Below are positions 17,597 to 38,397 of a stretch of DNA of 64,000 nt, piece after piece; positions within the stretch are counted from its first letter, which is position 1, and each line of letters opens with the position of its first letter. The DNA comes from Bacillota bacterium (GTDB lineage Bacteria > Bacillota > Clostridia > Peptostreptococcales > Anaerovoracaceae): contig JAFRJI010000012.1 in the NCBI GenBank assembly GCA_017432345.1, positions 62,001 through 126,000 of the forward strand. Direction: 5' to 3'. The notes below the pieces were generated by a model. The model worked only from the letters and a program-made list of their open reading frames with translations, ran no database searches and was not told the DNA's origin. The position numbers and the translations under genes were made by a program.

Positions 17597-18442
17597 ATGA
17601 GACAAATCATTTTGCAGCTTGCCGAAGACGGGTCGCTGCGGAAAGATCTACATGTTCATACAAAGTTCTGCGACGGCAGCGGCACGCCGGACGAGATCGT
17701 CCGGGCGGCCATCGGCAAAAGGCTGGATGTCATCGGTTTTTCCGGACACGCCCACACGCCGTTCGACGAAGAAGTCTGCATGTCGGTAGAAGGGATGGAG
17801 GAGTACGAAAAAGCCGTCCGCGCGGCGGCAGAGAAGTACGCCGGCGAGATACGAGTACTTTGCGGCACTGAGCAGGATTATTATTCTGACCAGCCGACGG
17901 ACCGTTGGGATTACGTCATCGGTTCCGTGCACTACATAGAAATGCCGGCGGATGACCAGGCGGCGGATGATCCGTGCGCCCGGGCCGGGAATTTTGCATA
18001 TCCTTCCGTCGACGATACGCCGGAGATCTTTGAGGACGCCGTCGAACGGTATTTCGGCGGAGATGTGTATGCCTTTGCGGAGGCGTATTACACCGTTCTT
18101 TCTGATGTCGTGCAAAAAACCGGCGCCGACATCATCGGACATTTCGACCTCATCAGCAAATTCAACGCCGGCGGTGAGAACGGCGGCAAGGGCAAGTACT
18201 TTGACGAGAGCCATCCGCGCTACGTGGCGGCATGGCAAAAAGCAGCAGACGCGCTGCTTGAGACAGGGACTTTGTTTGAAATCAATTACGGCGGGATGAA
18301 CCGGGGCCGCAGAAGCGAGCCGTATCCGTCAAAACCGATCCGCGACTATATCGAAGCCCGCGGCGGCAAGTTCATCCGTTCCAGCGACAGTCATGTTCCG
18401 GAGACACTGGCCTGCTGGGAGTCATTCAGACAAGATCGTTAG
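17597..18442 (+). CDS. hisK: Histidinol-phosphatase, PHP family (HisK/HisJ)
   Basis: 281-residue PHP-domain phosphoesterase. The first metal motif H-x-H occurs in DLHVHTKFCDGSG; further metal ligands are in GFSGHAHTPF, CGTEQDYY, IGSVHYIE, IIGHFDLISKFN and SSDSHVPE. Such enzymes dephosphorylate histidinol phosphate in Firmicutes and replace the HAD phosphatase domain of proteobacterial HisB. Last gene of the his operon. Its final 17 bases overlap the convergent vapC gene. Confidence 0.92.
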   Translation: MRQIILQLAEDGSLRKDLHVHTKFCDGSGTPDEIVRAAIGKRLDVIGFSGHAHTPFDEEVCMSVEGMEEYEKAVRAAAEKYAGEIRVLCGTEQDYYSDQPTDRWDYVIGSVHYIEMPADDQAADDPCARAGNFAYPSVDDTPEIFEDAVERYFGGDVYAFAEAYYTVLSDVVQKTGADIIGHFDLISKFNAGGENGGKGKYFDESHPRYVAAWQKAADALLETGTLFEINYGGMNRGRRSEPYPSKPIRDYIEARGGKFIRSSDSHVPETLACWESFRQDR

Positions 18443-18845
18443 GAGCTCTCCAATTTTCGAGCTTGAGCCCATCGATATCAATAAAATCTTTCGTATTATC
18501 ACTGACCAGGACGAAATCCAATGATCTGGCATGGGCCGCGATCATTTTATCTCGATCCTGGTTTTGCTTATCTTTGTGTTTCTGTTTTAGTTCCGCGAGG
18601 ATATCGCCGAAGTGCATTGCTGCGTTCATGTCAAAATCCAGGATCTTGATGCCTGCAAGAAAGAAACTGATCGCTTCCCGGTTGCGCACAGGATCGCTGC
18701 TGTTCATGATGCCGTATTCAAGTTCCGCGTAGGTCACGACAGAGAGGCATACGTCCTTGCCAAGATGAGCGGCAAGCTTGGCGGCGCAGGCAGAATCCGG
18801 ATGGCGGATACAGAAGATGATAATATTCGTATCAAGCATGAACAT
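18426..18845 (-). CDS. vapC: VapC-type PIN-domain toxin
   Basis: 139-residue PIN ribonuclease. The N-terminal catalytic aspartate lies in MLDTNIIIF, the conserved acidic residue in VVTYAELEYG, and the C-terminal aspartates in QDRDKMIAAHA and LVSDNTKDF. Family members cleave initiator tRNA or other structured RNA. The start ATG overlaps the antitoxin stop as TAATG; an alternative ATG lies two codons in (MLDTN). Convergent with hisK. Confidence 0.88.
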   Translation of the reverse strand: MFMLDTNIIIFCIRHPDSACAAKLAAHLGKDVCLSVVTYAELEYGIMNSSDPVRNREAISFFLAGIKILDFDMNAAMHFGDILAELKQKHKDKQNQDRDKMIAAHARSLDFVLVSDNTKDFIDIDGLKLENWRAPNDLV

Positions 18846-19093
18846 TACAGTTTCACCCTCTTATTCTCTGTTTCTTCCGGCCTGCCGTCTTCCATAAAAT
18901 CGTCGGTCATCAGGGAAAGCCCATAGTAGAACACCCGCTGGAGCGCATCCTTCGGTGTGATGATGAGAGATTCGCCGACTTTGTTGATGACGATTTCTTC
19001 GCTTTCCAGCCGGTATTCTTTAGGGACTCTGATGGCTTGGCTCCGGCCGCTCATGAAAGGTTTGGTCGTGTAGAATTTTGTTTCAGTACTCAT
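18845..19093 (-). CDS. vapB: VapB-type antitoxin (AbrB/SpoVT fold)
   Basis: 82-residue partner of the PIN toxin. The N-terminal half has the swapped-hairpin DNA-binding pattern GRSQAIRVPKEYRL followed by EEIVINKVGESLIITPK. The C-terminal part is the toxin-neutralising tail. The frame is open 15 codons further upstream, but the ATG at 19093 follows GGGAGGT at the right spacing. Located one base before vapC, with a palindrome in its promoter suitable for autoregulation. Confidence 0.87.
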   Translation of the reverse strand: MSTETKFYTTKPFMSGRSQAIRVPKEYRLESEEIVINKVGESLIITPKDALQRVFYYGLSLMTDDFMEDGRPEETENKRVKL

Positions 19094-19144: not shown

Positions 19145-19241
19145 AGAAACGACAGGAAAATAAATCGGGGTTGATTTTCTGTTGGAAAGAAGGCAAGATA
19201 GAATAAGAATTCAAAGAAGAAACCAAACGGGGAGGAACAAC

Positions 19242-20387
19242 ATGCGGGAAATCATCATGAATCCGGAACTGCACAAGTTCGGAACATTTAAGGAGTTTGC
19301 AGAAGAATTTGGTCTGGGAGAGGGCGACCTGCTCCTGACGACCAAGCCGGTCTACGACGGCGTGATCAAGGGCGCGCTGGCCGGCGGGGAACAGTGCATC
19401 GTGCAGGAAGACTTCGGCAAGGGCGAACCGACCGAGGAAATGATCGAGAAGATCTTTGCGGCGGTCGACTATGACAGCTACAAACGCGTCATCGCGGTCG
19501 GCGGCGGCACGATCATGGACATCGGCAAGCTGCTGGTGTTAAAACGCCCATCGTCTGTAAACGATCTGTTTTTCGGACGTGAGCCGATCGTCCGTGAAAA
19601 GAAACTGATCGCCATCCCGACAACATGCGGTACAGGATCCGAGGTCACCAAGACATCGGTCGCGATCGTCAGCGACGGTCAGGGCGGAACCACCAAGCTG
19701 GGGCTTTTGGATGAAGATCTGATCGCCGACGCGGCCTGCCTGATTCCGGAATTCCTAGAGAACCTGCCGCACCGGCCGTTTGCGGAATCGCTGATCGACG
19801 CGCTGATCCACGCGGTGGAATCCTACCTGTCACCATCCAAAGCGACAATGACATCCGATCTCTTCGGCGAAGGCGCTATCCGGACGATCACCAAGGCGCT
19901 CAAAGCCATGCAGGACGGCGTCGACATCAAGCACGAGTACGCCGACGAACTGCTGACAGCGGCATGCTACGCGGGACTCGCATTCCTGCAGGCAGGCTGC
20001 GGCATCATCCACGGCGTGTCCTACCCGATGAGCGGCAAATACTTCGTTACCCACGGCGCGGCCAACTACGTATTCTTCGAGGAGACGATGAAGATGTACA
20101 ACGACACGGATCCGGAGGGTAAGATCAGCAGCGTGCGGCGGATGATCACCGATGCGTTCGTGGACGGGCCGGCGACCGCTGAAGACGATGCAAAAGCCTT
20201 CGACACGCTTTTCGCGGCCATCACACAGCTTCTGCCGCCGAAGAAAATGCATGAATACGGCGTGACCGAGGAGGATGTGACCCTGTTTACCGAGTCTGTC
20301 TTCCAGAACCAGATGCGTCTGGTCGACAACGCGTACATAAAAATGACGCCGGAACTCGTCCGACGTCTTTACGAAGCAGTATTGTAA
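19242..20387 (+). CDS. Iron-containing alcohol dehydrogenase, 4-hydroxybutyrate dehydrogenase-like
   Basis: 381-residue type III dehydrogenase. NAD(P) loop VGGGTIMDIGK (about 87-96), PTTCGTGSEVT (126-136), and the iron ligands Asp186, His190, His257 and His271 (SLIDALIHAVE, IIHGVSYP, VTHGAANY). The sequence follows clostridial 4-hydroxybutyrate dehydrogenase along its whole length, for example GKGEPTEEMI, LIPEFLENLP, ANYVFFEE and the end MHEYGVTEED. That enzyme interconverts succinate semialdehyde and 4-hydroxybutyrate. The ATG at 19242 is chosen for its GGGGAGGAACAAC leader. The gene is a monocistron, convergent with an aldehyde dehydrogenase. A 3-sulfopropanal or sulfoacetaldehyde reductase role is possible given the importer and glycyl radical enzyme nearby, but is not shown. 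Confidence 0.85.
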   Translation: MREIIMNPELHKFGTFKEFAEEFGLGEGDLLLTTKPVYDGVIKGALAGGEQCIVQEDFGKGEPTEEMIEKIFAAVDYDSYKRVIAVGGGTIMDIGKLLVLKRPSSVNDLFFGREPIVREKKLIAIPTTCGTGSEVTKTSVAIVSDGQGGTTKLGLLDEDLIADAACLIPEFLENLPHRPFAESLIDALIHAVESYLSPSKATMTSDLFGEGAIRTITKALKAMQDGVDIKHEYADELLTAACYAGLAFLQAGCGIIHGVSYPMSGKYFVTHGAANYVFFEETMKMYNDTDPEGKISSVRRMITDAFVDGPATAEDDAKAFDTLFAAITQLLPPKKMHEYGVTEEDVTLFTESVFQNQMRLVDNAYIKMTPELVRRLYEAVL

Positions 20388-20392
20388 GCGGC

Positions 20393-20414
20393 GCGGCGGC
20401 TCAGGAGCCGCGCA
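20393..20414. terminator. GC-rich hairpin between convergent genes
   Basis: GCGGCTC (20396-20402) and GAGCCGC (20405-20411) are exact inverted copies in the 32-base gap between the two convergent dehydrogenase genes. There is no T-tract, so its efficiency as terminator is doubtful. Confidence 0.4.
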
Positions 20415-20419
20415 GCGCG

Positions 20420-21844
20420 CTATACCATATCTTTGAGGATGACGACTTTGGTCCTGGTCATTTCATCGAAGGTGCACATGACGCCTTCCGTACCGAGACC
20501 GCTCATCTTCCATCCGCCGAACGGCATTTCAAAAGTCCGGAGGCGGGATGCTCCATTCACAATTACATCACCAGCTTCCAGGCGGGTTGCCATCCGGGCG
20601 ATCCGCCTGCTGTTTTCGGTGAAGATGCAGCTGGCCAGACCATAAATGGAATTGTTGGCGATCGCCAGCGCCTCTTCTTCTGTATCGAACGGAATGATCG
20701 GAATGACCGGTCCGAACACTTCCATGTCTTTCGCGATATCCATGTCCGGCGTCACATCTGCCAGGACCGTCGCTTCGAACTTCGTCCCGTCGCGGTGGCC
20801 GCCGACCAGAACACGCGCGCCCTGATCCACCGTCATTTGCACCTGCCGCTCGACCTCAATGGCCGCTTTCTCATTGATCAGGCAGGTGAATTTTGTGTCC
20901 GGAAGCATCGGATCGGCCGATGACAGACCTTCAGCGATGGCGCAGACGCCCTTCGTGAACTCTTCGAGACGAGACCGGTGGATGATGAAACGCTTGCACG
21001 CGCAGCAGATCTGACCCGCGTTGACGAGCCGGCCCGGGAACACTTCGCCGAGGACGGTGTCCATATCCGCGTCTTCAAAGACGATGAACGGATCGTTGCC
21101 ACCCAGCTCCAGAGCGCATGGCGTCAGATTCTGTGCCGCCAGTTCCGCCACGTGAACGCCCACCGGGGTGCTGCCCGTCAGGGAAATGAACCCGATGCGC
21201 GGATCGGTGACTGCCGCTTCCTTGACTGCGCCCGGCGCTGTGACGCACTGGATCGCGCCGGCCGGAACGCCGGCCTCCGAAAGCAGCTGGCAAAGACGCA
21301 TATTAGTGAGAGGATTTCCCGACGGCGGCAGAACGAGCGCCGCGTTGCCCATCAGCAGCGCCGGGATCGCTTTCTGGCTCATCAGGTTCGACGGGAAGTT
21401 GAACGGGATGATGCAAAGCACCACGCCCACCGGCTCCCGCTTCACGTACTGAAGCGTGTGCTCCTGCCCCGGTTCCTGGCCGGTCGGAATGACCTGCTCG
21501 TAATAGTGCTTAGCCTTCTCGCAAAACGCCGGAACGGAAACGAACAGATTCCCGATCTCCCCATAAGCCTGCGCGTACGGTTTGCCGTTGTCTCGGCAGA
21601 GCGTCTCCGCCAGCGACGCGTGGTTCTCGCGCACCAGCTCCACGAACTTTAGCAGCACCTTGACACGTTCATGCAAAGGCACCGCAGCCCAAACCTTCTG
21701 TCCTTCGCATGCGGCCGTGATGGCGATATCGAGATCTTCGGCCGTTGCTTTTGGTACGGAATCGATAATTTCTCCGAAATACGGATCTTTTACTTCCATG
21801 GTTTCTCCGCTGACACTGTCTGTGAGCGTACCATTGATGAGCAT
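20420..21844 (-). CDS. NAD(P)-dependent aldehyde dehydrogenase, succinate-semialdehyde dehydrogenase-like
   Basis: 474-residue aldehyde dehydrogenase. Catalytic Asn149 (IIPFNFP), general base Glu246 (LELGGND) and nucleophile Cys280 (NAGQICCACKR) are in place, as is the EVFGPV motif. The coenzyme segment usually written L-K-P-S-E reads L-P-P-S-G (172-176), so both the ribose-binding lysine and glutamate are replaced. The gene starts at ATG 21844 behind GGAGGGAAA; an in-frame TTG further upstream lies in that ribosome site. Divergent from the transporter operon at 22091 with a shared AT-rich promoter region. Likely oxidises a small acidic aldehyde; substrate unknown. Confidence 0.85.
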   Translation of the reverse strand: MLINGTLTDSVSGETMEVKDPYFGEIIDSVPKATAEDLDIAITAACEGQKVWAAVPLHERVKVLLKFVELVRENHASLAETLCRDNGKPYAQAYGEIGNLFVSVPAFCEKAKHYYEQVIPTGQEPGQEHTLQYVKREPVGVVLCIIPFNFPSNLMSQKAIPALLMGNAALVLPPSGNPLTNMRLCQLLSEAGVPAGAIQCVTAPGAVKEAAVTDPRIGFISLTGSTPVGVHVAELAAQNLTPCALELGGNDPFIVFEDADMDTVLGEVFPGRLVNAGQICCACKRFIIHRSRLEEFTKGVCAIAEGLSSADPMLPDTKFTCLINEKAAIEVERQVQMTVDQGARVLVGGHRDGTKFEATVLADVTPDMDIAKDMEVFGPVIPIIPFDTEEEALAIANNSIYGLASCIFTENSRRIARMATRLEAGDVIVNGASRLRTFEMPFGGWKMSGLGTEGVMCTFDEMTRTKVVILKDMV

Positions 21845-21921
21845 TTTCACGGATTTTCCCTCCAATTATCAAAAAATACTACATATTATCAATTATTAAT
21901 GTGAAATTTTAAAATTAATAC

Positions 21922-21950
21922 TTGAAAAATTCCACGGAATAGAATAACAT
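21922..21950 (+). promoter_or_regulatory. Promoter of the importer/glycyl radical operon
   Basis: -35 TTGAAA (21922-21927) and -10 TAACAT (21945-21950), 17-base spacer, in the AT-rich gap between divergent genes. A perfect palindrome AATTTTAAAATT lies just upstream at 21905-21916 and could be an operator for both directions. Confidence 0.5.
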
Positions 21951-22090
21951 TACTGAGGATATTTGTAAATGGTTATGGAGATATATTTAAAAATTTATAG
22001 TAGGAGTGAGTGAACATTATGATGGCAAAACCACTCGTGTCTGTTCAAAGGCAATCATTTTTTAGAAATAATAGAGGTGAGAAAAGCGAT

Positions 22091-22897
22091 ATGATGGCAA
22101 AACAGAACCTACCGGCAACAAAAGGAAAAAGGAAGAAAAGTTCGATTCTGATTTCTTGTTGCTCCGTTGGTATCATTCTGGCGGTGTGGACGATCGCATC
22201 CGTTTCCGGCGCTCTGAGCTCCGGAATGGTTCCGACGATCCAGTCCGTCATCGCGGCGCTGGTCGACATCAGCGTTAACGGATATAAAGGAAGTACTTTG
22301 TTACAGCATCTGGGCGCCAGCTTTTACAGATTGCTGACAGCCTTCGGACTGGCGATCCTGACAGCCATTCCACTGGGACTGCTCAGTGGACAGAATGCGA
22401 AGGTCAGAGCTGCGCTGGAGCCTTTGGTCGAATTTGTCAGACCGCTGCCGCCACTGGCATATTACACGATCCTCGTCCTCTGGATGGGTATCGGCAACGG
22501 ATCGAAGATCATGCTTCTTTATCTGGCATGCTTCGCGCCGATCTACGTTGCATGCGTTGCTGCAGTTACGAAGATCCCTGCTTCTTATACAGATGTAGCG
22601 GCCACTCTTGGCGCGAATCACCAGCAGATCTTCTGGAGAGTCATTCTCCCTTATGCGGCACCGGATATTTTTACAGGCGTTCGTACCGCTTTTGGACATG
22701 GTTACAGCACCCTGGTCGCGGCCGAAATGGTTGCGGCGGCATCCGGCATAGGCTGGATGGTACTGGATGCCAGTAACTGGCTCAGAAGCGACGTAATATT
22801 TGCAGGCATCATTGTTATGGGAGCGACCGGAATCATCATCGACCAACTGTTGAGGACGACGGAGAGGAAGCTCGTTCCATGGAAGGGTAAGTTATAA
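22091..22897 (+). CDS. TauC/SsuC-type ABC transporter permease
   Basis: 268 residues, six predicted hydrophobic segments, of the nitrate/sulfonate/taurine permease family. The EAA-type loop is visible in ATLGANHQQIFWRVILPYAAPDIF-like sequence, and GHGYSTLVAAEMVAA is typical of SsuC/TauC. The frame can be extended to a GTG at 22010 or ATG at 22019, and both starts begin with the same Met-Met-Ala-Lys. The ATG at 22091 is chosen because GAGGTGAG precedes it by 8 bases and the protein then has the normal length. First gene of a five-gene operon. Confidence 0.85.
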   Translation: MMAKQNLPATKGKRKKSSILISCCSVGIILAVWTIASVSGALSSGMVPTIQSVIAALVDISVNGYKGSTLLQHLGASFYRLLTAFGLAILTAIPLGLLSGQNAKVRAALEPLVEFVRPLPPLAYYTILVLWMGIGNGSKIMLLYLACFAPIYVACVAAVTKIPASYTDVAATLGANHQQIFWRVILPYAAPDIFTGVRTAFGHGYSTLVAAEMVAAASGIGWMVLDASNWLRSDVIFAGIIVMGATGIIIDQLLRTTERKLVPWKGKL

Positions 22898-22948
22898 GTT
22901 AATGAAGTTAATGCATGATTTTGAAGGAGAATTTTGAAGGAGAAAAGG

Positions 22949-23986
22949 ATGAAAATGAGAAAAACAATTATTGCATTGCTGCTGTCATTCGTTACAGTAT
23001 TTGCATTTGTCGGATGTGGTGACAGCGGTTCATCAGAAGAACCTGCTGCTGATGAAGGCGCAGCAGTAAGCGCTGTTATCGCAACACAGGATCTGACCGA
23101 CGTTGCAGCCGTTGCAAAGGGCGCAGGCTACTTCAACGAGCAGATGGGTGAAGGAGTCGAAGTCAGCAGAATGGCTGCCGGAAGAGACATGATCACCGCT
23201 ATGAAATCCGGTGACGCCAACTTCGCAGGCCCTCTGGGAATCTGCCCGACGATTGTTGGTCTTACCACAGGAACCGACTATAAAGTAATTTACGTTGCCA
23301 GCCTGATCCGCGGGACGGAAGGTCTGGTAGTCCGTGAGAGTACCGGCTTCGAAACCGTTGCTGACCTGAAGGGTCAGAAGATCGGCGTTACGCTGGCATC
23401 CAGCGGACACTATGGCATGCTTTGCGCACTGGAAGATGCCGGTCTGACAACAGACGATGTTGAGATCCTCGACATGGCTCCGGACGCAATCAACTCCGCA
23501 TGGGAGAGAGGCGACATCGACGTAGCTTACACCTGGAACCCGACGCTGACCAACATCGCCAACAAGGACGGCAAGATCATCCTCACCGCTGCTGACCTCG
23601 CAAAGGCAGGACACCAGACTATCAACTTCCACATCGTAAGAAGTGACTTCGCTGAAGCAAATCCGGAAGCTGTTACGAACTATGTAAGAGCGCTGGCACA
23701 GGCCAATGACCTCTATGACAACAGCAAGGAAGAAGCGCAGGAAATCGTCGGCGAATATCTGGAGATGGATCTGGATGTCGTTGAACAGCAGATGTCTGAC
23801 GACTATCCGGGACTGGAAAGACAGCTGAATGATGATGTACTTGGAAACGACAATGCGGCTGCCGCTATGCTGCAGGTTGCTGAGTTCCTCCAGAAGGCTG
23901 GACAGATCGATGATGCAAAAGACCTTGACTTTTTCAAGAATGCGATTGATACTACTTATATAGAGCAAGTTCTCAGCGAGAAGTAG
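22949..23986 (+). CDS. TauA/SsuA-like substrate-binding lipoprotein
   Basis: 345 residues with a lipoprotein signal peptide (basic start, hydrophobic stretch, lipobox FVGC at about residue 26). The mature part follows the taurine/aliphatic-sulfonate binding protein pattern: DMITAMKSGDANFAG, ASLIRGTEGLVVRES, DLKGQKIGVTLASSGHYGML, WERGDIDVAYTWNP, IVRSDFAEANPEAV. Binding proteins of this group present taurine or alkanesulfonates to TauBC/SsuBC, so a small sulfonate or a close anionic analogue is the likely ligand. ATG chosen 6 bases after AAGGAG. Operon with permease (51 bases upstream) and ATPase (30 bases downstream). Confidence 0.85.
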   Translation: MKMRKTIIALLLSFVTVFAFVGCGDSGSSEEPAADEGAAVSAVIATQDLTDVAAVAKGAGYFNEQMGEGVEVSRMAAGRDMITAMKSGDANFAGPLGICPTIVGLTTGTDYKVIYVASLIRGTEGLVVRESTGFETVADLKGQKIGVTLASSGHYGMLCALEDAGLTTDDVEILDMAPDAINSAWERGDIDVAYTWNPTLTNIANKDGKIILTAADLAKAGHQTINFHIVRSDFAEANPEAVTNYVRALAQANDLYDNSKEEAQEIVGEYLEMDLDVVEQQMSDDYPGLERQLNDDVLGNDNAAAAMLQVAEFLQKAGQIDDAKDLDFFKNAIDTTYIEQVLSEK

Positions 23987-24016
23987 TATATAAGGAAAAG
24001 CAAGGATAAGACAAAC

Positions 24017-24811
24017 ATGAATGATAAAACTGTTCAAATGACTGTCAATTCATTATCACTGAGATACAAGGGTGCCAATGAGTCTCCGGACACATTGGCA
24101 CTTGATAATGTTAATTTGACAGTATATGAAGGGGATTTTGTGTGCATTCTGGGACCGTCCGGCTGCGGTAAGAGTACACTGCTCAATATTATGGCGGGAC
24201 TTTTGAAGCAGACCAGCGGTACGATCGAGATGCGCGGTGAGCCGATCAACGGCGTGGATCCGAGCAGAGCCGTCGTATTCCAGACTCCAACACTTTACCC
24301 TTGGACAAATGTGTATAACAACATCGCATTCGGACCGACTGTCAGAAAAGTCGATAAAGCGGAGATCCAGAGACGTACCAAAGAATATCTGGAGCTGGTA
24401 GGGCTGAAGGATTTTGCGAACGCGAAACCATATGAGCTTTCCGGCGGCATGCGTCAGAGAGTGGCGCTTGCCAGAGCGTTGGTAAACGATCCGACCATGA
24501 TCCTGTTGGATGAGCCATTCGGCGCGTTGGACGCCTTTACCAGAAACTCCATGCAGGACCTGATCCGGAGGATTTGGAAGGCAACGAAGCCGACGATCAT
24601 CATGATCACCCACGATGTCGACGAAGCGCTGACACTGGCGACCCGCGTCATTGCCATGTCTCCGTCTCCGGGAAGGATCGTCAAGGAGTACGAAGTCGAT
24701 TTTACGATGAAGATGGAAGACAGCCAGGAGGATGCGAGATATACGCCGGAATACATTGAACTGCGTAAGCAGATTTTAGGGTTGATGCATATTGAACGGG
24801 ATTATCTTTAA
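24017..24811 (+). CDS. TauB/SsuB-type ABC transporter ATPase
   Basis: 264-residue ABC ATPase: Walker A GPSGCGKST, Q-loop in VVFQTPTLYPWTNV, signature LSGGMRQRVALARAL, Walker B MILLDEPFGALD, and the switch histidine in ITHDVDEAL. The PTLYPWTNVYNNIAFG region is typical for nitrate/sulfonate/taurine importers. It overlaps the start of the activase gene by 20 bases, tying the importer to the glycyl radical enzyme. Confidence 0.9.
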   Translation: MNDKTVQMTVNSLSLRYKGANESPDTLALDNVNLTVYEGDFVCILGPSGCGKSTLLNIMAGLLKQTSGTIEMRGEPINGVDPSRAVVFQTPTLYPWTNVYNNIAFGPTVRKVDKAEIQRRTKEYLELVGLKDFANAKPYELSGGMRQRVALARALVNDPTMILLDEPFGALDAFTRNSMQDLIRRIWKATKPTIIMITHDVDEALTLATRVIAMSPSPGRIVKEYEVDFTMKMEDSQEDARYTPEYIELRKQILGLMHIERDYL

Positions 24812-25742
24812 TATTCAACATTATACGATCCATGACGGTCCGGGCATCCGCACGGAACTGTTCATGAAGGGATGCGCGCTCCGCTGTCCATGGTGCAGCA
24901 ATCCGGAAGGACAATCCTCCCGGATCCAGCCGGGGGTCTATCAGAGCAAGTGCATTTCAGATAGCGTTTGCGGCCTCTGCAGGACGGTATGTCCGCAGGA
25001 GGGCGCATTGCTTTTTGCAGACGGAAAACTGACCGCCATCGACCGGGCGAAATGCACCGGCTGCATGGCCTGCGCGGATGCTTGTCCGGCCGACGCCATC
25101 AAGCCGTGGGGCAGAGAGATCTCCGTGGAAGAGGCGATGCGTGAGATCCGCCGGGACAAGGGTTACTATGACCGGTCCGGCGGCGGTGTCACCGTGTCCG
25201 GAGGCGAACCGCTGCAGCAGGCGGGCTTTGTGGAAGAGCTGCTCCGCGCATGTAAAGAGGAAGGTATCCACACCTGCTGCGAATCGACGCTGAACGTTCC
25301 GTGGGAAAAGGTGGAACAGATCCTCCCTTGGACAGACCTGTTCATTACGGACATCAAACACATGGACAGCGCGGTACACAAGGATTTTTCCGGCGGAGGG
25401 AACGAGCGGATCATCGAAAACCAGAAGAAGCTCGTCCGCACGGGAAAGGATATCATCGCACGCATTCCGGTGATCCCGGGGGTCAATGACGATGCGGCGA
25501 ACATCGAGGCAACGGCGGACTATATCCTAGAGGATCTTGAGGGAAAGGTCCGTACGCTGCAACTGCTCAGTTTCATGCGCCTCGGAGAAGAAAAATACCG
25601 GTCACTGGGAATGCCATACGGTATGGCAGACCTGAAGATCGACCGGCCGGAATTCCAGGCTCATGTTTCTGAGATCGCGGACTATTTCAACAGCCGCGGG
25701 ATCCACTGCCTGGTGGGAACGCGGGAAAAGGAAGAATCATGA
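24792..25742 (+). CDS. Glycyl radical enzyme activase (radical SAM)
   Basis: 316 residues beginning with a TTG codon (M-N-G-I-I-F-N-I-Q-H-Y). This is the canonical activase N-terminus, so TTG is accepted although the ribosome site is weak. The radical SAM motif Cys28-x3-Cys32-x2-Cys35 is followed by two ferredoxin-type cysteine clusters (about residues 54-70 and 84-98), and then VTVSGGEPLQQ. Two extra 4Fe-4S clusters are typical of activases for diol dehydratase, choline lyase and isethionate lyase types, not of the pyruvate formate-lyase activase. It installs the glycyl radical on the enzyme encoded immediately downstream (ATGA overlap). Confidence 0.9.
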   Translation: MNGIIFNIQHYTIHDGPGIRTELFMKGCALRCPWCSNPEGQSSRIQPGVYQSKCISDSVCGLCRTVCPQEGALLFADGKLTAIDRAKCTGCMACADACPADAIKPWGREISVEEAMREIRRDKGYYDRSGGGVTVSGGEPLQQAGFVEELLRACKEEGIHTCCESTLNVPWEKVEQILPWTDLFITDIKHMDSAVHKDFSGGGNERIIENQKKLVRTGKDIIARIPVIPGVNDDAANIEATADYILEDLEGKVRTLQLLSFMRLGEEKYRSLGMPYGMADLKIDRPEFQAHVSEIADYFNSRGIHCLVGTREKEES

Positions 25743-28264
25743 TAAATCAGACGGTACATACAAACGCACGCGGGCTGGAGCCTTTTGATCAGGTATACAG
25801 TCTGGGCTATGAAGTGGGACACGGCGACTGGTCCCCGTTTCCGCGGGTCAACCGGCTTCGCCAGACGTTCCTGGATCGGCCTTTCAATATCGATATCGAG
25901 CGGTTCCGCAACGTGACGGAAGCGTATCAGGTATATGAGAGAGAACCGGTGAAGCTTCGCTGTGCAAAGGCTTTCGAAAGCATCCTGATGAACGCAACGC
26001 TGTACATCTACGACGAGGACCTGATCCTGGGCGAGATCGCGGCGCCGGCCAAGGCCTCCCCGCAGTATCCGGAGTTTTCGGTGAACTGGATGCTCTACGA
26101 AGCGCTTTATGAGCCTTTTGAAGAACGGGAGCACGATCAGTTCTATTTCGTCAGCGAAGAGGACCGGCAGGAATTCATCGAGCTTTGCAAATGGTGGCAG
26201 GGCAAAGCGGTGGACGATCAGGTGGACGCGTATCTGGACGACGACCAGCTGAAGGGATCCCAGTCGGGGAAGAAGATCTTCCAGACGAACCTGTACCACT
26301 ACGGCGGCGTGGGTCATTACGTCATGAACTATGAGAAGATCCTGCGTGTGGGTTTTGCGGGAATGGCAGCAGAGGCAAAGGCCGGAATGGCGCGCCTCTC
26401 GAAGAAAGACCCGGACTACGCCGAGAAAAAAGTCTTTTATGAAGCGGTGATCATTTGCCATGAAGCCGCGATCAAATACATCCAGCGTTACGCGAAATTA
26501 GCCGAAGAAATGGCGGCGGACTGCACAGATCCTGCCCGGAAGCAGGAACTGGAGCAGATGGCGGCGAACTGTCGGCAGGTCGCGGGCGGCCCGGCCAAAA
26601 CGTTCTGGCAGGCGCTGCAGCTGTTCAATTTCGCGACCACGCTGACCCAGATCGAAAGCAACGGCCACTCCGTGTCCTACGGACGCATGGACCAGTGGCT
26701 GTATCCATATTATGAAGCGGACATGCAGAGCGGGGAGATCACGAAGGATTTTGCGCAGGAACTGTTGGAAGTCACCTACGTGAAGATGAACAACCCAACG
26801 AAGATCCGCGACGGCGGGACGGCGAAAGTCCGCCAGGGCAGGGGCTTTGGCGGCGAATGCCTGACCATCGGCGGCGTCGACCGGGATGGGAACGACGCCA
26901 CCAACGACCTGACCATGATGCTGCTGGATGCATCCGTGCACACGCGGATGATGTGTCCGTGGCTCTTGGTGCGCATGCACGAGAACACGCCGTATGAACT
27001 GAAGGTCAAGACGGTGGAATGCATCCGCGCCGGGTATGGCCATCCGAAGATCTTTAACGACGCGCCGACCATCGCCGCGCAGATGAGCAAAGGCATGCCG
27101 CTGGAGGAAGCGCGGGATTACGCCATCGTCGGCTGCGTGGAGCCGAATTCTCCGGGCAGGGAGTACGGTTGGCACGACGGTTCCTACATCAACACCGTCA
27201 AATTCATGGAGATGGTCCTCAACGGCGGACGCTGTCTGGACTGCGGTCCGCACTGCGCGCGCTGGGAGAAGTGCGGCGCCCTGGGCAAAGCCCTCGGACC
27301 GGATACCGGCAGCCTGGAAACCTATCAGAGTTTTGATGAAGTATTGGAGAGCGTGGACAAGCAGTTCGACTACTGGGTCGATCAGATGTGCAGCACGATG
27401 AATATCGTTGACCGCGCCCACAGAGACCGCAAGCCGTTGCCATACGCGTCCGCATTCTTTGACGGATGCCTGGAAGACGGCGTCGACGTGACGGCGGGCG
27501 GAACCGTGTACAACGGAATCGGCCCGCAGGCCTCGGGTCTGGCCACCTGCGCCGACTCGCTGGCAGTCATCAAGCAGCTCGTCTTTGACGAAAAGCGCTT
27601 CACGGGAGCGCAGCTTTTGCAGGCGGTCAAGGATAACTGGGAAGGCCACGAAATCCTGTACGCACTGGTCAACAGCTCGAAGGTGCACCACTTTGGAAAC
27701 GACGATGATTACGCTGATGAACTGTTCCGGTTCATGTTCGAGTGCTACTGCAGACACTTGTCTGGCCGGCCGACTATCCGCGGCGGCGAATTCACGCCGG
27801 GGGTCTACTCGGTCAGCGCCAACGTCGGCATGGGGCTCAACACCAACGCGTCTCTGGATGGACGCAAGGCGGGCGAGGCGATCTCCGACAATATGGGACC
27901 GGTCCACACGAGAGTCGGCTCCCATGATATCTGCGGTCCGATCGCGGTCGCGCACTCCGTCTCCAAAGTCGACCACTCGCTGGCCACCAACGGGACGCTG
28001 CTGAACATGAAGTTCCCGCAGGATGCCGTCGCCGGCGTCGAAGGCAGGGACAATCTGGTCAGCTTCATCGACGAGTACCTCTCCGGGGACCCGATGCACA
28101 TCCAGTTCAACATCATGAGCTCGGAGACCATGCGGGCCGCGCAGAAGCACCCGGAACATTATAAGGACATGCTGGTCCGTGTCGCAGGCTACAGCGCCTA
28201 CTTCGTGGAACTGGGCAAAGCCCTGCAGGAAGACCTGATCAACCGGACGGAGCTGTCGTTCTAG
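25739..28264 (+). CDS. Glycyl radical enzyme, diol dehydratase-like, substrate unassigned
   Basis: 841 residues. The C-terminal radical site is Gly817 in VRVAGYSAYF, and the thiyl cysteine is Cys466 with Glu468 in YAIVGCVEPN. Residues expected in 1,2-diol/glycerol dehydratases are also present: Asp480 fourteen after the cysteine (GWHD), His193 in GGVGHYV, and a serine in ESNGHSVSYGR (306-316). Isethionate lyase instead uses Gln/Arg near the His position according to published structures, so dehydration of a vicinal diol is more likely than C-S cleavage. No microcompartment signal or shell gene is seen. Translationally coupled to its activase. The TauABC-like importer upstream suggests a sulfonated diol such as dihydroxypropanesulfonate; this is inference. 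Confidence 0.85.
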   Translation: MINQTVHTNARGLEPFDQVYSLGYEVGHGDWSPFPRVNRLRQTFLDRPFNIDIERFRNVTEAYQVYEREPVKLRCAKAFESILMNATLYIYDEDLILGEIAAPAKASPQYPEFSVNWMLYEALYEPFEEREHDQFYFVSEEDRQEFIELCKWWQGKAVDDQVDAYLDDDQLKGSQSGKKIFQTNLYHYGGVGHYVMNYEKILRVGFAGMAAEAKAGMARLSKKDPDYAEKKVFYEAVIICHEAAIKYIQRYAKLAEEMAADCTDPARKQELEQMAANCRQVAGGPAKTFWQALQLFNFATTLTQIESNGHSVSYGRMDQWLYPYYEADMQSGEITKDFAQELLEVTYVKMNNPTKIRDGGTAKVRQGRGFGGECLTIGGVDRDGNDATNDLTMMLLDASVHTRMMCPWLLVRMHENTPYELKVKTVECIRAGYGHPKIFNDAPTIAAQMSKGMPLEEARDYAIVGCVEPNSPGREYGWHDGSYINTVKFMEMVLNGGRCLDCGPHCARWEKCGALGKALGPDTGSLETYQSFDEVLESVDKQFDYWVDQMCSTMNIVDRAHRDRKPLPYASAFFDGCLEDGVDVTAGGTVYNGIGPQASGLATCADSLAVIKQLVFDEKRFTGAQLLQAVKDNWEGHEILYALVNSSKVHHFGNDDDYADELFRFMFECYCRHLSGRPTIRGGEFTPGVYSVSANVGMGLNTNASLDGRKAGEAISDNMGPVHTRVGSHDICGPIAVAHSVSKVDHSLATNGTLLNMKFPQDAVAGVEGRDNLVSFIDEYLSGDPMHIQFNIMSSETMRAAQKHPEHYKDMLVRVAGYSAYFVELGKALQEDLINRTELSF

Positions 28265-28322
28265 CTGGTTTACGTGTGTTTCGTCTGCGCTCGCGCGTCG
28301 TAGCATCCGCAACGCTCGCTTG

Positions 28323-28364
28323 CCGCAACGCGGTGCGGGGCCTGTTTACCGCAGCGCGGTGCGG
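28323..28364. repeat. Two tandem 16-bp hairpin repeats
   Basis: CCGCAACGCGGTGCGG (28323-28338) and CCGCAGCGCGGTGCGG (28349-28364) differ by one base, lie 26 bp apart, and each can fold as a CCGCA/TGCGG hairpin. Located in the gap after the glycyl radical enzyme gene. Confidence 0.6.
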
Positions 28365-28380
28365 AGCTTTTGCATGATAA

Positions 28381-29289
28381 TCAAACGCGTGGCAAGACTC
28401 TGGTTTCCAGAGTCTTTTTTAATTGACCGGAACTGGTAAGATCGCACTCGAAGGTCGTAATGAGATTTTCGGCAGATACGGTTCCTGTTTCACGTAGCAC
28501 AAAAACCCGGTCTGAAGCGGTGCACCGATATAACGGATTGCTGGCGACGCCTTCATGTTCGTGATAGATGATTTTATTATCGCAAGTCAATGTCGAATAA
28601 TCGGGATAAATGATTACTGTTCCGGTTCTTGGATCAAAGCTGCGCCAAATAGATCCGCGCATATTCATCCAGCTCAGTTCCGGCGGCACATTCCAGAAAC
28701 ACATACCGGAAGAATAATGAAACAACCCTTTGCCGTTGCGAAATGCGGCAGTGTACTTCTCCAGTTCCGGAAGCAATGAAGAGAGATCCACTTCAAGCGC
28801 CATCTCGTAACGTGTAGGAATCCCCAGCAATTCATATTGGTTGAGAATTTCCCGTTCCGATTTGGATCTGGTTTTCACACCGGAGATGGATGCGTATTTT
28901 TTGTCCTCTGGACGGAACGGGTTCATAGGGTATTTATCATGAATCCATTTATACTGCATTGGTGTCAGTGTGATTCTGGAAATGTCCAAACCAGCCTTTG
29001 CGTATTTCGTCAAAAGGCGATCGAGCTCGCTCCGATCGCATCCTTTTAGTACAGGGATGTATAGCGACAGATACTTTTTTCGGGCAAGCAGATAGACTAG
29101 ATCCATATTGCGGTTGATATTTCGCTCCACTCCGCTCGAAGCGGTGTTGCTCGCAGGACCGCTGCTTCTAGCGACATCCTTCACGGGGGTATACTGGACG
29201 AAAGCGGTATATCTCGGCCCCTGTTTCAAGTAAAGCGTCCCTTCTGGAAGCCGCCGCAACTCGCGGCTCAGCACATAAAGTTTATCCAT
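28381..29289 (-). CDS. Orphan protein with PD-(D/E)XK nuclease-like motif pattern
   Basis: 302 residues, not a protein I can name. The middle (about 140-165) has the pattern TRSKSEREILNQYELLGIPTRYE, which resembles the start of Clostridia proteins with a restriction-endonuclease-like fold (SKSE..IA..L...GI.Y.YE). About 100 residues later IIYPDYSTLT...IIYHEHEG resembles their PDF....YWEH.G active-site part. The lysine-type residue of a standard PD-(D/E)XK core is not evident, so activity is uncertain. Start at 29289 follows GTAGGAGC; an open extension to 29325 lacks a ribosome site. Less GC-rich than its neighbours. Transcribed away from the 63-bp repeat array that lies just upstream. Confidence 0.6.
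   Translation of the reverse strand: MDKLYVLSRELRRLPEGTLYLKQGPRYTAFVQYTPVKDVARSSGPASNTASSGVERNINRNMDLVYLLARKKYLSLYIPVLKGCDRSELDRLLTKYAKAGLDISRITLTPMQYKWIHDKYPMNPFRPEDKKYASISGVKTRSKSEREILNQYELLGIPTRYEMALEVDLSSLLPELEKYTAAFRNGKGLFHYSSGMCFWNVPPELSWMNMRGSIWRSFDPRTGTVIIYPDYSTLTCDNKIIYHEHEGVASNPLYRCTASDRVFVLRETGTVSAENLITTFECDLTSSGQLKKTLETRVLPRV
28395..28420 (+). terminator. Rho-independent terminator of the glycyl radical operon
   Basis: Perfect stem AGACTCTGG/CCAGAGTCT with a TTT loop, followed by TTTTT on the plus strand. The hairpin lies inside the last codons of the convergent gene at 28381-29289. Confidence 0.92.
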
Positions 29290-29377
29290 ATTGATCGCAG
29301 CTCCTACAGTCGGTTGAATTACCAAATATTACCATTTATTTGTGTGCCTGTCAACTGATTTTTCTCCGCTGCCGATC

Positions 29378-29736
29378 GATGGTAACGAAAAACTTAGCAT
29401 ATGCAGGTTTCTCGTTATCACAAAGTCCTTGCACCTGATAAATGTTAACGAAACCGAGCTCTTTCGCGCATCTTTCGTTATCAAAAGGCTTTGCCCCTGA
29501 TTGATGTTAACGATAATTGGCGCTGGAAGAGAGCTTTCGTTATCATAAAGACATTGGCCATCCACAGGTGTTAACGAGAAATGAGTTAGTCGGGAGATTT
29601 TTCGTTAACACATGATTCTTGCCGCTCGGTAATGCTAACGATAATAGGAAATGCGGGGCATTTTTCGTTAACACAAAGCCCTTACGCTGGAAGAATGTTA
29701 ACGAAAGCTAGTTAACAAGGCGGTTTTTCGTTAACA
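29378..29736. repeat. Tandem array of twelve 9-bp motifs in alternating orientation, about 32 bp apart
   Basis: Forward motif TGTTAACGA (or one-base variants) starts at 29378, 29443, 29505, 29569, 29633 and 29696. Its reverse complement TCGTTAACA (or TCGTTATCA) starts at 29412, 29475, 29537, 29602, 29665 and 29728. Successive starts are 30-34 bp apart, average about 32, close to three helical turns, so the whole unit repeats about every 63 bp. Sequences between motifs vary. The array sits between the divergent genes at 29289 (minus) and purE (30087), upstream of the purE promoter. Spurious short open frames cross it. Confidence 0.9.
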
Positions 29737-29844
29737 ATGATTTTGCACTAGGAAAAAGAATAATCGCTCCCTGGATTGGAGACATAACTTGTAACGAATC
29801 AAACACCTTTTATAAATCCGAAAAAGAACTTTACTTTTCACCCT

Positions 29845-29874
29845 CAACTGTGTAGTATGGAAGTGTAATATAAT
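29845..29874 (+). promoter_or_regulatory. Promoter of the purine operon
   Basis: A perfect -10 TATAAT at 29869-29874 directly upstream of the riboswitch aptamer. The -35 region (CAACTG at 29845-29850, 18-base spacing) is a weak match. Confidence 0.55.
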
Positions 29875-29881
29875 ATCAGTA

Positions 29882-29948
29882 ACTAATATAAATTCAGTAT
29901 GATGGCCTGAACGTTTCTACCACGCGCCGAAAAAAAGTGACTATTAGT
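29882..29948 (+). ncRNA. Purine (guanine-type) riboswitch aptamer
   Basis: P1 arms ACTAATA (29882-29888) and TATTAGT (29942-29948) pair perfectly. P2 is TTCAG/CTGAA enclosing a TATGATGG loop. The junction GTTTCTACC (29913-29921) is identical to the family consensus. The J3/1 segment GACTAT carries a cytosine at the position that pairs with the ligand, which indicates guanine/hypoxanthine instead of adenine. P3 (CAC/GTG) is short. A terminator follows, so guanine should switch the operon off. Confidence 0.88.
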
Positions 29949-29994
29949 GAGAACAATGCGAAGATCTAGTATTTTTTGTTTTTTTGTAAATGAT

Positions 29995-30050
29995 GGCAGA
30001 AGAATCGACCATGAGTCTACTCATGAAGATTTCTCTGCCTTTTGTTATTT
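29995..30050 (+). terminator. Riboswitch-controlled terminator before purE
   Basis: GGCAGA (29995-30000) pairs with TCTGCC (30034-30039), with an inner perfect hairpin CATGAGT/ACTCATG, followed by TTTTGTTATTT. It lies between the guanine aptamer and the purE ribosome site, the position of an expression platform. Confidence 0.82.
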
Positions 30051-30086
30051 AAAAAGAAAAGTCAAGCGTAACAAGGAGAATCAAGC

Positions 30087-30569
30087 ATGAAAAAAGTCGG
30101 AATCGTAATGGGAAGCGACAGCGATATGCCGGTCGCGGAGAAGGCGATCCAGCGCCTCGACAAATACGGCATCCCGTATGAAGTACACATCTATTCAGCG
30201 CACCGGACTCCGGAAGCAGCCCGCGCGTTTTCTGCAAAGGCCGCCGAGAACGGATTCGGCGTGATCATCGCCCTGGCGGGCAAAGCCGCGCATCTGGCCG
30301 GCAGCCTGGCGGCGAACACCGTCATTCCGGTCATCGGCGTACCGGTGAAGTCCTCGACTCTGGACGGGCTGGACGCGCTGCTATCCACCGTGCAGATGCC
30401 ATCCGGGATCCCGGTCGCGACCGTTGCCATCGACGGGGCAGCCAACGCAGCGATCCTGGCCGCGCAGATCATCGCGCTCGGCGATGAGGAACTCGCGCAA
30501 AAGCTGAAGGACGAGAGAAAAGCCGCGGAAGCGGAAGTGTTGGCCAAAGACGCCAAGCTGAACGCGTAA
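30087..30569 (+). CDS. purE: N5-carboxyaminoimidazole ribonucleotide mutase
   Basis: 160 residues with the PurE signature GIVMGSDSDMPVAEKA and SAHRTPEAARAF. The segment ALAGKAAHLAGSLAANT and VQMPSGIPVATVAIDGAANAAILA fit class I PurE, which uses N5-CAIR made by PurK. No purK is in the window. The tail beyond residue 150 is a short charged helix. Start behind AAGGAGAATCAAGC. First gene of the purine operon, downstream of the riboswitch terminator. Confidence 0.93.
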   Translation: MKKVGIVMGSDSDMPVAEKAIQRLDKYGIPYEVHIYSAHRTPEAARAFSAKAAENGFGVIIALAGKAAHLAGSLAANTVIPVIGVPVKSSTLDGLDALLSTVQMPSGIPVATVAIDGAANAAILAAQIIALGDEELAQKLKDERKAAEAEVLAKDAKLNA

Positions 30570-30638
30570 GAGATGCGGCGCAGGCGCCGCGCACGGACCA
30601 AGTTAAACAATGCATTGCACATACGCAGGAGGAACAAA

Positions 30639-31322
30639 ATGGAGTTAGTTTACACAGGAAAGACAAAAAACGTATACGCACTGGACAACGGCAATTATCT
30701 GCTCAAGTTCAAGGATGATGTGACCGGTAAGGACGGCGTGTTCGATCCGGGCATGAACGAAGTCGGCTTGAGCATCGAAGGCGTCGGCGACGTCAATCTG
30801 AGAATGTCGATCTACTTTTTTGAGAAGATCAACGCGGCCGGGATCCTGACGCACTATGTCAGCGCCGACCTGGAGAACACGACGATGGAAGTCAAACCGG
30901 CGACCGTTTTCGGACATGGTCTGGAGGTCATTTGCCGTCACAAGGCGGTCGGGTCGTTCATCCGCAGATACGGCGAATACATCGAGGAAGGCGCGGACCT
31001 GCCGGCCTACGTCGAGACGACCTTCAAGAACGACGAAAAGGAAGACCCGCTCGTCACGAAGGACGGCCTGCTCGTACTGGGCATCATGACCGACGAACAG
31101 TACGAAGACCTGAAGGTCATGACACAGAAGATCACCCAGATCGTAGCGGATGACCTGCTCGAAAAGGGTCTCGTGCTGTATGACATCAAGTTCGAATTCG
31201 GATACGACGCAGACGGCAACGTCATGCTGATCGACGAAATCGCATCCGGCAACATGAGAGTATACAAGGACGGCGAGTACATCGAGCCGATGGAACTGTC
31301 CAAGCTGTTCTTTGCGGAATAA
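30639..31322 (+). CDS. purC: SAICAR synthase
   Basis: 227 residues of the ATP-grasp-like SAICAR synthetase family, starting [30 protein letters not shown]. Substrate-binding segments include [17 protein letters not shown] and the metal/ATP region [25 protein letters not shown]. It ligates aspartate to CAIR. The frame is open from 30573, but the ATG at 30639 follows CGCAGGAGGAACAAA. A GC-rich hairpin (GCGGCGC/GCGCCGC) lies in the 69-base gap after purE. Confidence 0.93.
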
Positions 31323-31336
31323 AATGGAGAAATAAT

Positions 31337-31996
31337 ATGGATTACACAGATAAAACATGTCGGGAATTCGTGGAATGCGTCGCGATGAAGACACCGATTC
31401 CGGGTGGCGGATCTGTCGCCGCGCTGGTCGGTGCGCTGGGCGCGTCCCTGAGCACGATGGTAGCGTCCCTGACCCTCGGCAAGAAGAAATTCATCGCCGT
31501 GGAAGTGGAGATGGAAAAGAACATCGAAGAGATCTACAAGATCCAGAACGAGCTACTGTCGCTCGTCCAGAAGGACATCGACAACTTCGAACCGCTTTCC
31601 AAGCTTTACAAGAAAAAAGCATCCACGCCGGAAGAGAAAAAGATCCTCTCCGAACAGAAGCAAAACGCCCTGTACGAGGCCTGCCTCGTGCCGATGGAGA
31701 TCATTCAGAAATGCGGCCGCGCCATCGAACTGGCACAGGAATTCGCGACCAAAGGCAACAAAGTCGTCATCGCGGACTCCGGATCCAGCGCCGTTCTCTG
31801 CAAGGCGGCTATGCAGGCGGCCAGCTTCAACATCTACATCAACACCAACATGATGAAAGACAAGGATCTGGCAAAGAAGATCAACGGCGAGACCACCGCG
31901 CGAATCGTCTATTACGGCGCGCTGGCGGACGCGGTCTTCGGATACACGACCAATACGCTGATCAACACGGTCATCGAAACGGAAAACACGATCTAA
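31337..31996 (+). CDS. Cyclodeaminase/cyclohydrolase family protein (FchA-like) in the purine operon
   Basis: 219 residues of the same family as the product of 8836-9462, with the N-terminal signature KTPIPGGGSVAALVGALGASLSTMVASLTLGKK and a long helical body. Family members are formimino-THF cyclodeaminases or methenyl-THF cyclohydrolases (FchA). Because its neighbours need 10-formyl-THF (PurN, AICAR transformylase), the cyclohydrolase role is more likely here: hydrolysis of methenyl-THF to 10-formyl-THF. It lies 14 bases after purC with AATGGAGAAAT as ribosome site. The choice between the two activities cannot be made from sequence alone. Confidence 0.82.
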   Translation: MDYTDKTCREFVECVAMKTPIPGGGSVAALVGALGASLSTMVASLTLGKKKFIAVEVEMEKNIEEIYKIQNELLSLVQKDIDNFEPLSKLYKKKASTPEEKKILSEQKQNALYEACLVPMEIIQKCGRAIELAQEFATKGNKVVIADSGSSAVLCKAAMQAASFNIYINTNMMKDKDLAKKINGETTARIVYYGALADAVFGYTTNTLINTVIETENTI

Positions 31997-32081
31997 ACAG
32001 ATCGATCGGATCGACGATTATCGATAATACAAACGCACGCCGGCAGCAATGAATGCCGGCAGCACCAGAAAGGATACTAAT

Positions 32082-33506: not shown

Positions 33507-33509
33507 AGC

Positions 33510-35881: not shown

Positions 35882-35899
35882 GGCCGGAGGAAGAAGACA

Positions 35900-37084: not shown

Positions 37085-37105
37085 GAAACGAGGGGGAAAC
37101 GAGTC

Positions 37106-38380: not shown

Positions 38381-38397
38381 CGCAGAAAGGAGCGGAC

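Follow-up and report, generated by a model that had tools for sequence, protein, structure and literature searches.

The stretch analysed here (the window, 64,000 nucleotides of contig JAFRJI010000012.1 from a Bacillota bacterium of the family Anaerovoracaceae) carries a locus built around a dehydratase for 2,3-dihydroxypropane-1-sulfonate (DHPS). Five genes on the forward strand form a single tight operon: a TauC-like permease of an ATP-binding cassette (ABC) importer (start at 22019 or 22091, end at 22897; PF00528), a TauA-like substrate-binding protein whose N-terminus looks by eye like a lipobox (22949–23986), a TauB-like ABC ATPase (24017–24811), the radical-SAM activase HpfH with a TTG start (24792–25742), and the glycyl radical DHPS dehydratase HpfG (25739–28264). 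An iron-containing alcohol dehydrogenase (ADH; 19242–20387; PF00465/PF25137) lies upstream on the same strand. Between it and the operon, on the reverse strand, stands an aldehyde dehydrogenase (ALDH) of the non-acylating type (20420–21865), which converges with the ADH gene and diverges from the operon. The tauABC, ADH and ALDH genes are referred to below as the cassette. All seven genes are present in the order given by the original prediction, with coordinates exact or off by a few bases, and the divergence of the ALDH gene is also as it claimed. The importer is indeed joined to the glycyl radical enzyme (GRE) by overlaps, of 20 bases between tauB and the activase gene and of 4 bases between the latter and the GRE gene. 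The AT-rich gap between the ALDH gene and tauC (21866–22018) has promoter-like matches on both strands and probably holds the promoters for both; over the whole scanned region such matches number 26 versus 7.8 in shuffles. A terminator-like hairpin with a T run at 28394–28416 (forward strand) is the probable end of the operon, but matches of this kind are no more frequent in the scanned region than chance predicts (12 found versus 11.9 expected from shuffles). The Pfam matches of the enzymes are far beyond chance (PF02901 with 688 bits and PF01228 with 94 bits for the GRE; PF00171 with 465 bits for the ALDH).

The GRE passes the NCBIfam equivalog model of Klebsiella-type HpfG (NF048009) with 1599 bits against a cut-off of 1000, and the activase that of HpfH (NF048008) with 526 bits against 500. 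Other assignments of the GRE failed: it scores 512 bits against a cut-off of 1000 for the DHPS sulfolyase HpsG (NF048011), and misses the NCBIfam cut-offs for the choline enzyme CutC, the hydroxyproline enzyme HYPD and arylacetate decarboxylase. For comparison at residue level we used ten positions of glycerol dehydratase (1r8w), which we take to be the dehydratase active site and the radical glycine. Seven of them are identical (H164, S282, C433, E435, D447, Y640 and G763), corresponding to H193, S311, C466, E468, D480, Y690 and the radical glycine G817 of the window's HpfG, while Y339, P641 and S642 of glycerol dehydratase differ. The locus set for this comparison consists of 80 of 109 relatives, with L002–L074 as HpfG rows and L075–L081 as the outgroup; the alignment contains the window and 74 further rows (the 73 loci and one row from genome G268), of which 69 are full length. 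All 69 share the seven residues, except that G817 is found in 68, with a gap in the other. Two further residues, R365 and R368, are arginine in 69 of 69 full-length rows and in neither glycerol dehydratase nor any of 7 outgroup rows; we infer that they may hold the sulfonate. Eight relatives that were checked (L009, L071, L059, L046, L052, L021, L025 and L002) all score above the HpfG cut-off. Neither in NCBIfam, nor in the alignment, nor in the GRE tree (built without the fragments L064, L065, L070, L072 and L073 and without glycerol dehydratase) does the enzyme group with a non-sulfonate class. Curated models and residues together identify the pair as HpfG and HpfH, with turnover of (S)-DHPS as the predicted activity, in support of the earlier proposal that an HpfG-type enzyme dehydrates DHPS.

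All three importer subunits are nearest to TauABC, yet fall below every Tau equivalog cut-off of NCBIfam: the permease reaches 219 bits against 342 for TauC, the ATPase 255 against 357 for the taurine ATPase model, and the binding protein 134 and 176 bits against 490 and 304 for two TauA models, the second being TIGR01729. The best solved relative of the binding protein is TauA (6ssy). According to main-text passages of PMC6906117, Gln30, Gly61, Gly79 and Thr132 of TauA contact the sulfonate, and Glu106, Thr132 and Asp205 contact the amine; 10 of the 13 residues named there fit the 6ssy numbering, and the misfits Asn55, Asp84 and Ser109 were left unused. The binding protein of the window keeps Gln30, Gly61, Gly79, Glu106 and Trp176, and has Ser for Thr132 and Asn for Asp205. 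The sulfonate contacts are kept and Asp205 is replaced by Asn in all five different binding proteins of the cassette (window, L009, L071, L153 and L154). A second ABC subfamily found beside HpfG has Asn at this position as well, in all 8 of its binding proteins that were aligned. Family membership and the conserved Gln30, Gly61 and Gly79 thus bear out the sulfonate-type importer of the original prediction. Compared with the taurine importer TauABC of Escherichia coli, the same family and the same sulfonate-contacting residues are found, but the residue that holds the taurine amine in TauA is changed. Kept sulfonate contacts with an altered amine contact would fit an amine-free sulfonate such as DHPS, and Asn at the Asp205 position may be read as a suggestive pointer to DHPS.

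The ADH is a candidate 3-sulfopropanal reductase and could be a functional stand-in for HpfD. None of its 13 NCBIfam iron-ADH matches reaches the cut-off. Its nearest solved chain is Cvir-Hbd2 (30sm, 266 bits), within a wider group that we take to be 4-hydroxybutyrate-type dehydrogenases. The four cassette ADHs (window, L009, L153 and L154) group together in the ADH tree with support 95/100 and are separate from the HpfD-type ADHs. A long branch separates the group of the window's ADH from 8 ADH rows of HpfG loci, which were drawn from the 30 loci of a blast cluster, one of these being L009; among the rows L006 has a very long branch. ADHs that lie beside HpfG in other loci share 23–33% identity with the window's ADH, or 27–33% without L003 and L006. 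At such identity and in a different part of the tree, the window's ADH was rejected as HpfD. The neighbour group of the clade consists of L163–L167, whose L163 member has genes for an acyl-CoA dehydrogenase and a class-III aminotransferase nearby. In genome G268 the cassette ADH gene comes immediately after tauB, in the same orientation.

The ALDH is the candidate 3-sulfopropanal dehydrogenase that would yield 3-sulfopropionate (3-SP). None of the best 25 of its 43 NCBIfam ALDH matches reaches its cut-off. It carries the Glu of an LELGGN motif and the Cys of a GQIC motif, a pattern that we take to be the signature of non-acylating ALDHs. The description of the enzyme as similar to succinate-semialdehyde dehydrogenase (SSADH) was too specific, as SSADH is one of several similar ALDH families. 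Its score for TIGR01780 is 331 bits against a cut-off of 646, and two arginines of SSADH (3ek1 and 8of1), which presumably hold the substrate carboxylate, are replaced by Val and Gln; on both counts SSADH was rejected. HpfX was rejected as well: blastp at 1e-8 gave no match between the ALDH and the members of the HpfX-type cluster in L025, L028, L038, L043, L054 and L056, and no PF08442 domain was found in the window's genome, which is 82% complete. In L025, the one locus checked for it, the HpfX-type gene stands before a succinyl-CoA-ligase-like pair by Pfam. In the ALDH tree, made without the partial L070 and without repeat extracts, the enzyme falls in a clade of six (window, L009, L153, L154, L071 and L059; support 98/99), all from HpfG loci or from genomes with HpfG. 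The expectation of both reductive and oxidative candidate enzymes for 3-sulfopropanal near HpfG is therefore upheld, as an ADH and an ALDH.

The cassette and hpfGH are separable, but they occur in the same genomes. HpfG was found in 9 of 297 genomes of the order, 5 of them among the 15 genomes of the window's genus. The binding protein occurs at E<=1e-30 in 8 of the 297 genomes; in three of these (G000, G261 and G268, all of the window's genus) it has at least 52% identity, and in the other five 31–36%. Judged by the binding protein at E<=1e-30, the cassette is present in 3 of the 15 genus genomes, all among the five with HpfG (hypergeometric 0.022, relatedness uncorrected), while G193 and G291 of the genus have HpfG without it. 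Across the class, HpfG is found at E<=1e-200 in 8 of 391 genomes, above the cut-off in 3, and the ALDH at E<=1e-150 only in the window's own genome. In G261, the window segments 19237–24792 and 29820–39760 are collinear with L153, and the segment between them (24793–29819), with HpfH, HpfG and a 314-aa gene, is absent there; window positions 24807–28263 align with L093, another contig of the same genome. In G268 the order is tauC-tauA-tauB-ADH with a divergent ALDH gene, and hpfGH lie on another contig. Outside the genus, L071 combines tauCAB (72, 53 and 62% identity) with HpfH, HpfG, a LysR gene and an ALDH of the same type (60%), and L059, a short contig in which no importer was seen, has HpfG followed by the ALDH (59%). 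Both contigs are titled Lachnospiraceae, and the association of HpfG with this ALDH clade likely spans two families. The HpfGs closest to the window's (L002–L020 and relatives) mostly stand with HpfH; a LuxR gene occurs in 11 of the 22 other loci of the window's HpfG subclade, and a TauE gene in none of them. Two genomes (G473:C1 and G006:C12) have two HpfG copies each above the cut-off.

We consider that the locus is probably a module for uptake and dismutation of DHPS. The TauABC-type importer would take up DHPS, HpfH would activate HpfG, and HpfG would dehydrate DHPS by glycyl-radical chemistry to 3-sulfopropanal. Part of the aldehyde would be reduced by the iron ADH with NADH to 3-hydroxypropanesulfonate (3-HPS) as an electron sink, and the other part, or overflow aldehyde, would be oxidised by the divergent ALDH to 3-SP, without CoA and without gain of ATP. 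The flanking ADH and ALDH genes are expected to be co-expressed with the operon, and the products would be exported. GH31 (PF01055), transaldolase (PF00923) and succinyl-CoA-ligase (PF08442) domains were not found in the 82%-complete genome; DHPS is therefore probably imported rather than made in the cell from sulfoquinovose, and no HpfYZ is seen. Sulfoglycolysis in the same cell was considered, but no GH31 or transaldolase domain supports it in this incomplete genome.

Alternatively, the tauABC-ADH-ALDH cassette could work on its own for a different small sulfonate or an omega-hydroxy acid, importing an alcohol and oxidising it to the acid, and hpfGH would merely have landed behind its tauB gene in this lineage. 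The ADH and ALDH could directly oxidise an imported alcohol, and in G261 and G268 the cassette indeed occurs without adjacent hpfGH. Nevertheless, both genomes carry HpfG elsewhere, the ALDH clade recurs beside HpfG, together with tauCAB in L071 and on a short contig with no importer in view in L059, and tauB overlaps hpfH by 20 bases, which makes an independent module rather unlikely. A carboxylate version of the pathway, from 3,4-dihydroxybutyrate through succinate semialdehyde to 4-hydroxybutyrate and succinate, was named as an alternative by the original prediction itself and would agree with the ADH, which falls in a wider group with Cvir-Hbd2 and further presumed 4-hydroxybutyrate-type dehydrogenases. 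The carboxylate version appears very improbable given the HpfG equivalog score, the HpfG-invariant residues, the sulfonate-type residues of the binding protein and an ALDH lacking both of the SSADH arginines that we assume to bind a carboxylate. ABC importers of the Tau class usually serve sulfur scavenging, and DHPS could likewise be a source of sulfur or an electron acceptor, with 3-SP cleaved in the cell to sulfite. Of the two products, 3-SP but not 3-HPS served Bilophila as an electron acceptor, according to main-text passages of PMC11489063. However, neither a sulfite/nitrite reductase domain (PF01077) nor a second PFL-like GRE of the IslA or HpsG type was found in the 82%-complete genome, and we regard cleavage to sulfite as the least probable of these alternatives.

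Several observations weigh against the proposed uptake and dismutation of DHPS. Absences from an 82%-complete genome are weak, including those used above. No TauE exporter domain was found in it, which leaves export without an explanation, and ABC import combined with a non-acylating dehydrogenase spends ATP and yields none, which is odd for an electron sink. A second ADH of the wider group in this genome, 41% similar, could carry out the reduction instead, and L071 shows no ADH in the vicinity of HpfG. In the window's HpfG subclade, the cassette lies near HpfG in just one of the 22 other loci, L009, some of the loci being on short contigs. Of six aligned binding proteins encoded away from HpfG, three also carry Asn at position 205 (L169, L170 and L150) and three do not (L168, L171 and L172); in the second ABC subfamily, Tyr replaces Glu106 of TauA. 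The sister group of the ALDH clade (L155–L162, 55–58% identical to the window's ALDH) has a FIST-domain gene as its neighbour in each of its 8 genomes, all from the family, the FIST assignment being by Pfam in L159 and by blastp likeness of 65–99% in the other seven. Seven of these eight genomes have no HpfG match in the order-wide search, and no FIST match at 1e-20 was found within L001–L081. The FIST-linked ALDHs also lack the SSADH arginines; loss of the arginines is therefore no pointer to a sulfonate.

A dehydratase route of this kind is known. In the HpfGHDE system of Klebsiella oxytoca, with HpfD also in Hungatella hathewayi, main-text passages describe HpfG and HpfH of the same families, conversion of DHPS to 3-sulfopropanal and reduction by an iron ADH (PMC11489063, PMC12890257). 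The window differs in its TauABC-type importer and in an ADH outside the HpfD group. It is also unlike the Hungatella effluvii locus L021, where a TauE-type gene, an HpfD-type ADH and a sodium:sulfate-symporter-type gene come after HpfG. The original prediction had counted the added aldehyde dehydrogenase towards a different version of the route. An oxidative branch from 3-sulfopropanal was, however, already published in 2024: the route bifurcates, with HpfD giving 3-HPS and the CoA-acylating HpfX with the ATP-making HpfYZ giving 3-SP (PMC11489063, PMC12890257, PMC12330013, in the passages seen). What stands of the novelty is the ALDH type, the importer and the reductase. Enterococcus gilvus, with HpfGHD and HpfXYZ, shares the reductive and oxidative branches beside HpfG; its HpfX acylates CoA and works with an ADP-forming HpfYZ by the account in PMC11489063, whereas the ALDH of the window is of the non-acylating type and no PF08442 was found. 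The same passages of Chen et al. 2024 state that HpfXYZ clusters invariably contain HpfD (PMC11489063). A further parallel is homotaurine degradation in Cupriavidus necator, cited there, which shares oxidation of 3-sulfopropanal to 3-SP by a non-acylating NAD(P) dehydrogenase but generates the aldehyde by an aminotransferase (PMC11489063). The DHPS importer of Ruegeria is given as hpsKLM, not tauABC, in the portion of PMC10130141 consulted. Main-text passages on HpfG, 3-sulfopropanal, 3-SP, DHPS and importers (PMC11489063, PMC12890257, PMC12330013, PMC11659671, PMC13219744, PMC9594981, PMC6906117, PMC10507020, PMC10130141, PMC10675870, PMC12421959) tie neither a TauABC-type importer nor a non-acylating ALDH to HpfG, which is no proof of absence in print. 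The window thus represents a variant of known biochemistry, which keeps the key enzyme but differs in transport and redox partners and has no ATP-conserving step in view.

A Tau/Ssu-type ABC importer lies near HpfG in 11 of the 73 HpfG loci. The TauE, sodium-symporter-like, LuxR and HpfX clusters are each found in none of these 11, versus 15, 14, 34 and 6 of the other 62, and the blast cluster holding HpfD occurs in 1 of the 11 (L009, through its cassette ADH) versus 29 of the 62. These counts are descriptive, as rows are related and contigs of unequal length; each cluster takes its name from the Pfam match of a single member (L021, L021, L012 and L025), and for one of the two symporter-like clusters the name was given by eye. 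On the GRE tree, which was built quickly and leaves 14 forks open, presence of the ABC importer and presence of the ALDH each need at least 4 changes. L046 (4550–13874) shows an AMP-binding ligase, a different ABC importer, HpfH, HpfG and a non-acylating-type ALDH with no ADH in view; L047 and L049 are similar, with ABC importer and ALDH of other subfamilies, and the ligase is seen by Pfam in L046 only. Such a row might possibly serve an oxidative-only use of DHPS. The second ABC subfamily lies divergent from HpfH-HpfG in L050, L052, L053, L055, L057 and L063, with neither an ALDH nor an ADH match in view. Behind HpfG in L055 and L063, on the other strand, comes a gene of the acetyl-CoA hydrolase/transferase type, by Pfam in L063 only. 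We tentatively suggest, as less than likely, that a second, ABC-fed regime of HpfG exists, in which 3-SP is formed by direct non-acylating oxidation, ABC importers and non-acylating-type ALDHs having joined HpfG more than once; 3-SP might even be the sole product in loci with an ALDH and no ADH in view (L071, L046, L047, L049 and the short contig L059), in contrast to the published HpfXYZ clusters with their HpfD.

Around the locus, a PIN-domain gene (PF01850) lies on the reverse strand in the 18429–19093 region just upstream of the ADH gene. It immediately follows a small gene that weakly matches a MazE-like antitoxin (22.8 bits, below the cut-off of 24.7); the two are a probable toxin-antitoxin pair. 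Downstream, the 314-aa gene (28381–29325, reverse strand) gave zero matches in the Pfam, NCBIfam, PHROGs and plasmid searches. It lies inside the segment that is absent from the collinear contig of G261 together with hpfGH, has a homolog in L009 (62%) and none in L153, L154, L093, L094 and L071, and may be part of what moved with hpfGH. A purine riboswitch (RF00167, 52.8 bits) at 29864–29963 stands ahead of genes read as purE and purC.

DHPS arises from sulfoquinovose breakdown and in diatoms, and 3-SP supports growth of Bilophila while 3-HPS does not, 3-SP being the only one of the two that serves Bilophila wadsworthia as an electron acceptor (PMC11489063, in its main-text passages). Whether anaerobes release 3-HPS or 3-SP bears on the share of DHPS sulfur that is able to become H2S. 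In many loci neither HpfD nor HpfXYZ lies beside HpfG, and for some of these the cassette supplies candidates for the importer, the reductase and the dehydrogenase; as G261 and G268 illustrate, the partners of HpfG can sit on a different contig from HpfG itself. If true, the ABC-fed oxidative regime would make DHPS respirable by Bilophila-like sulfidogens.

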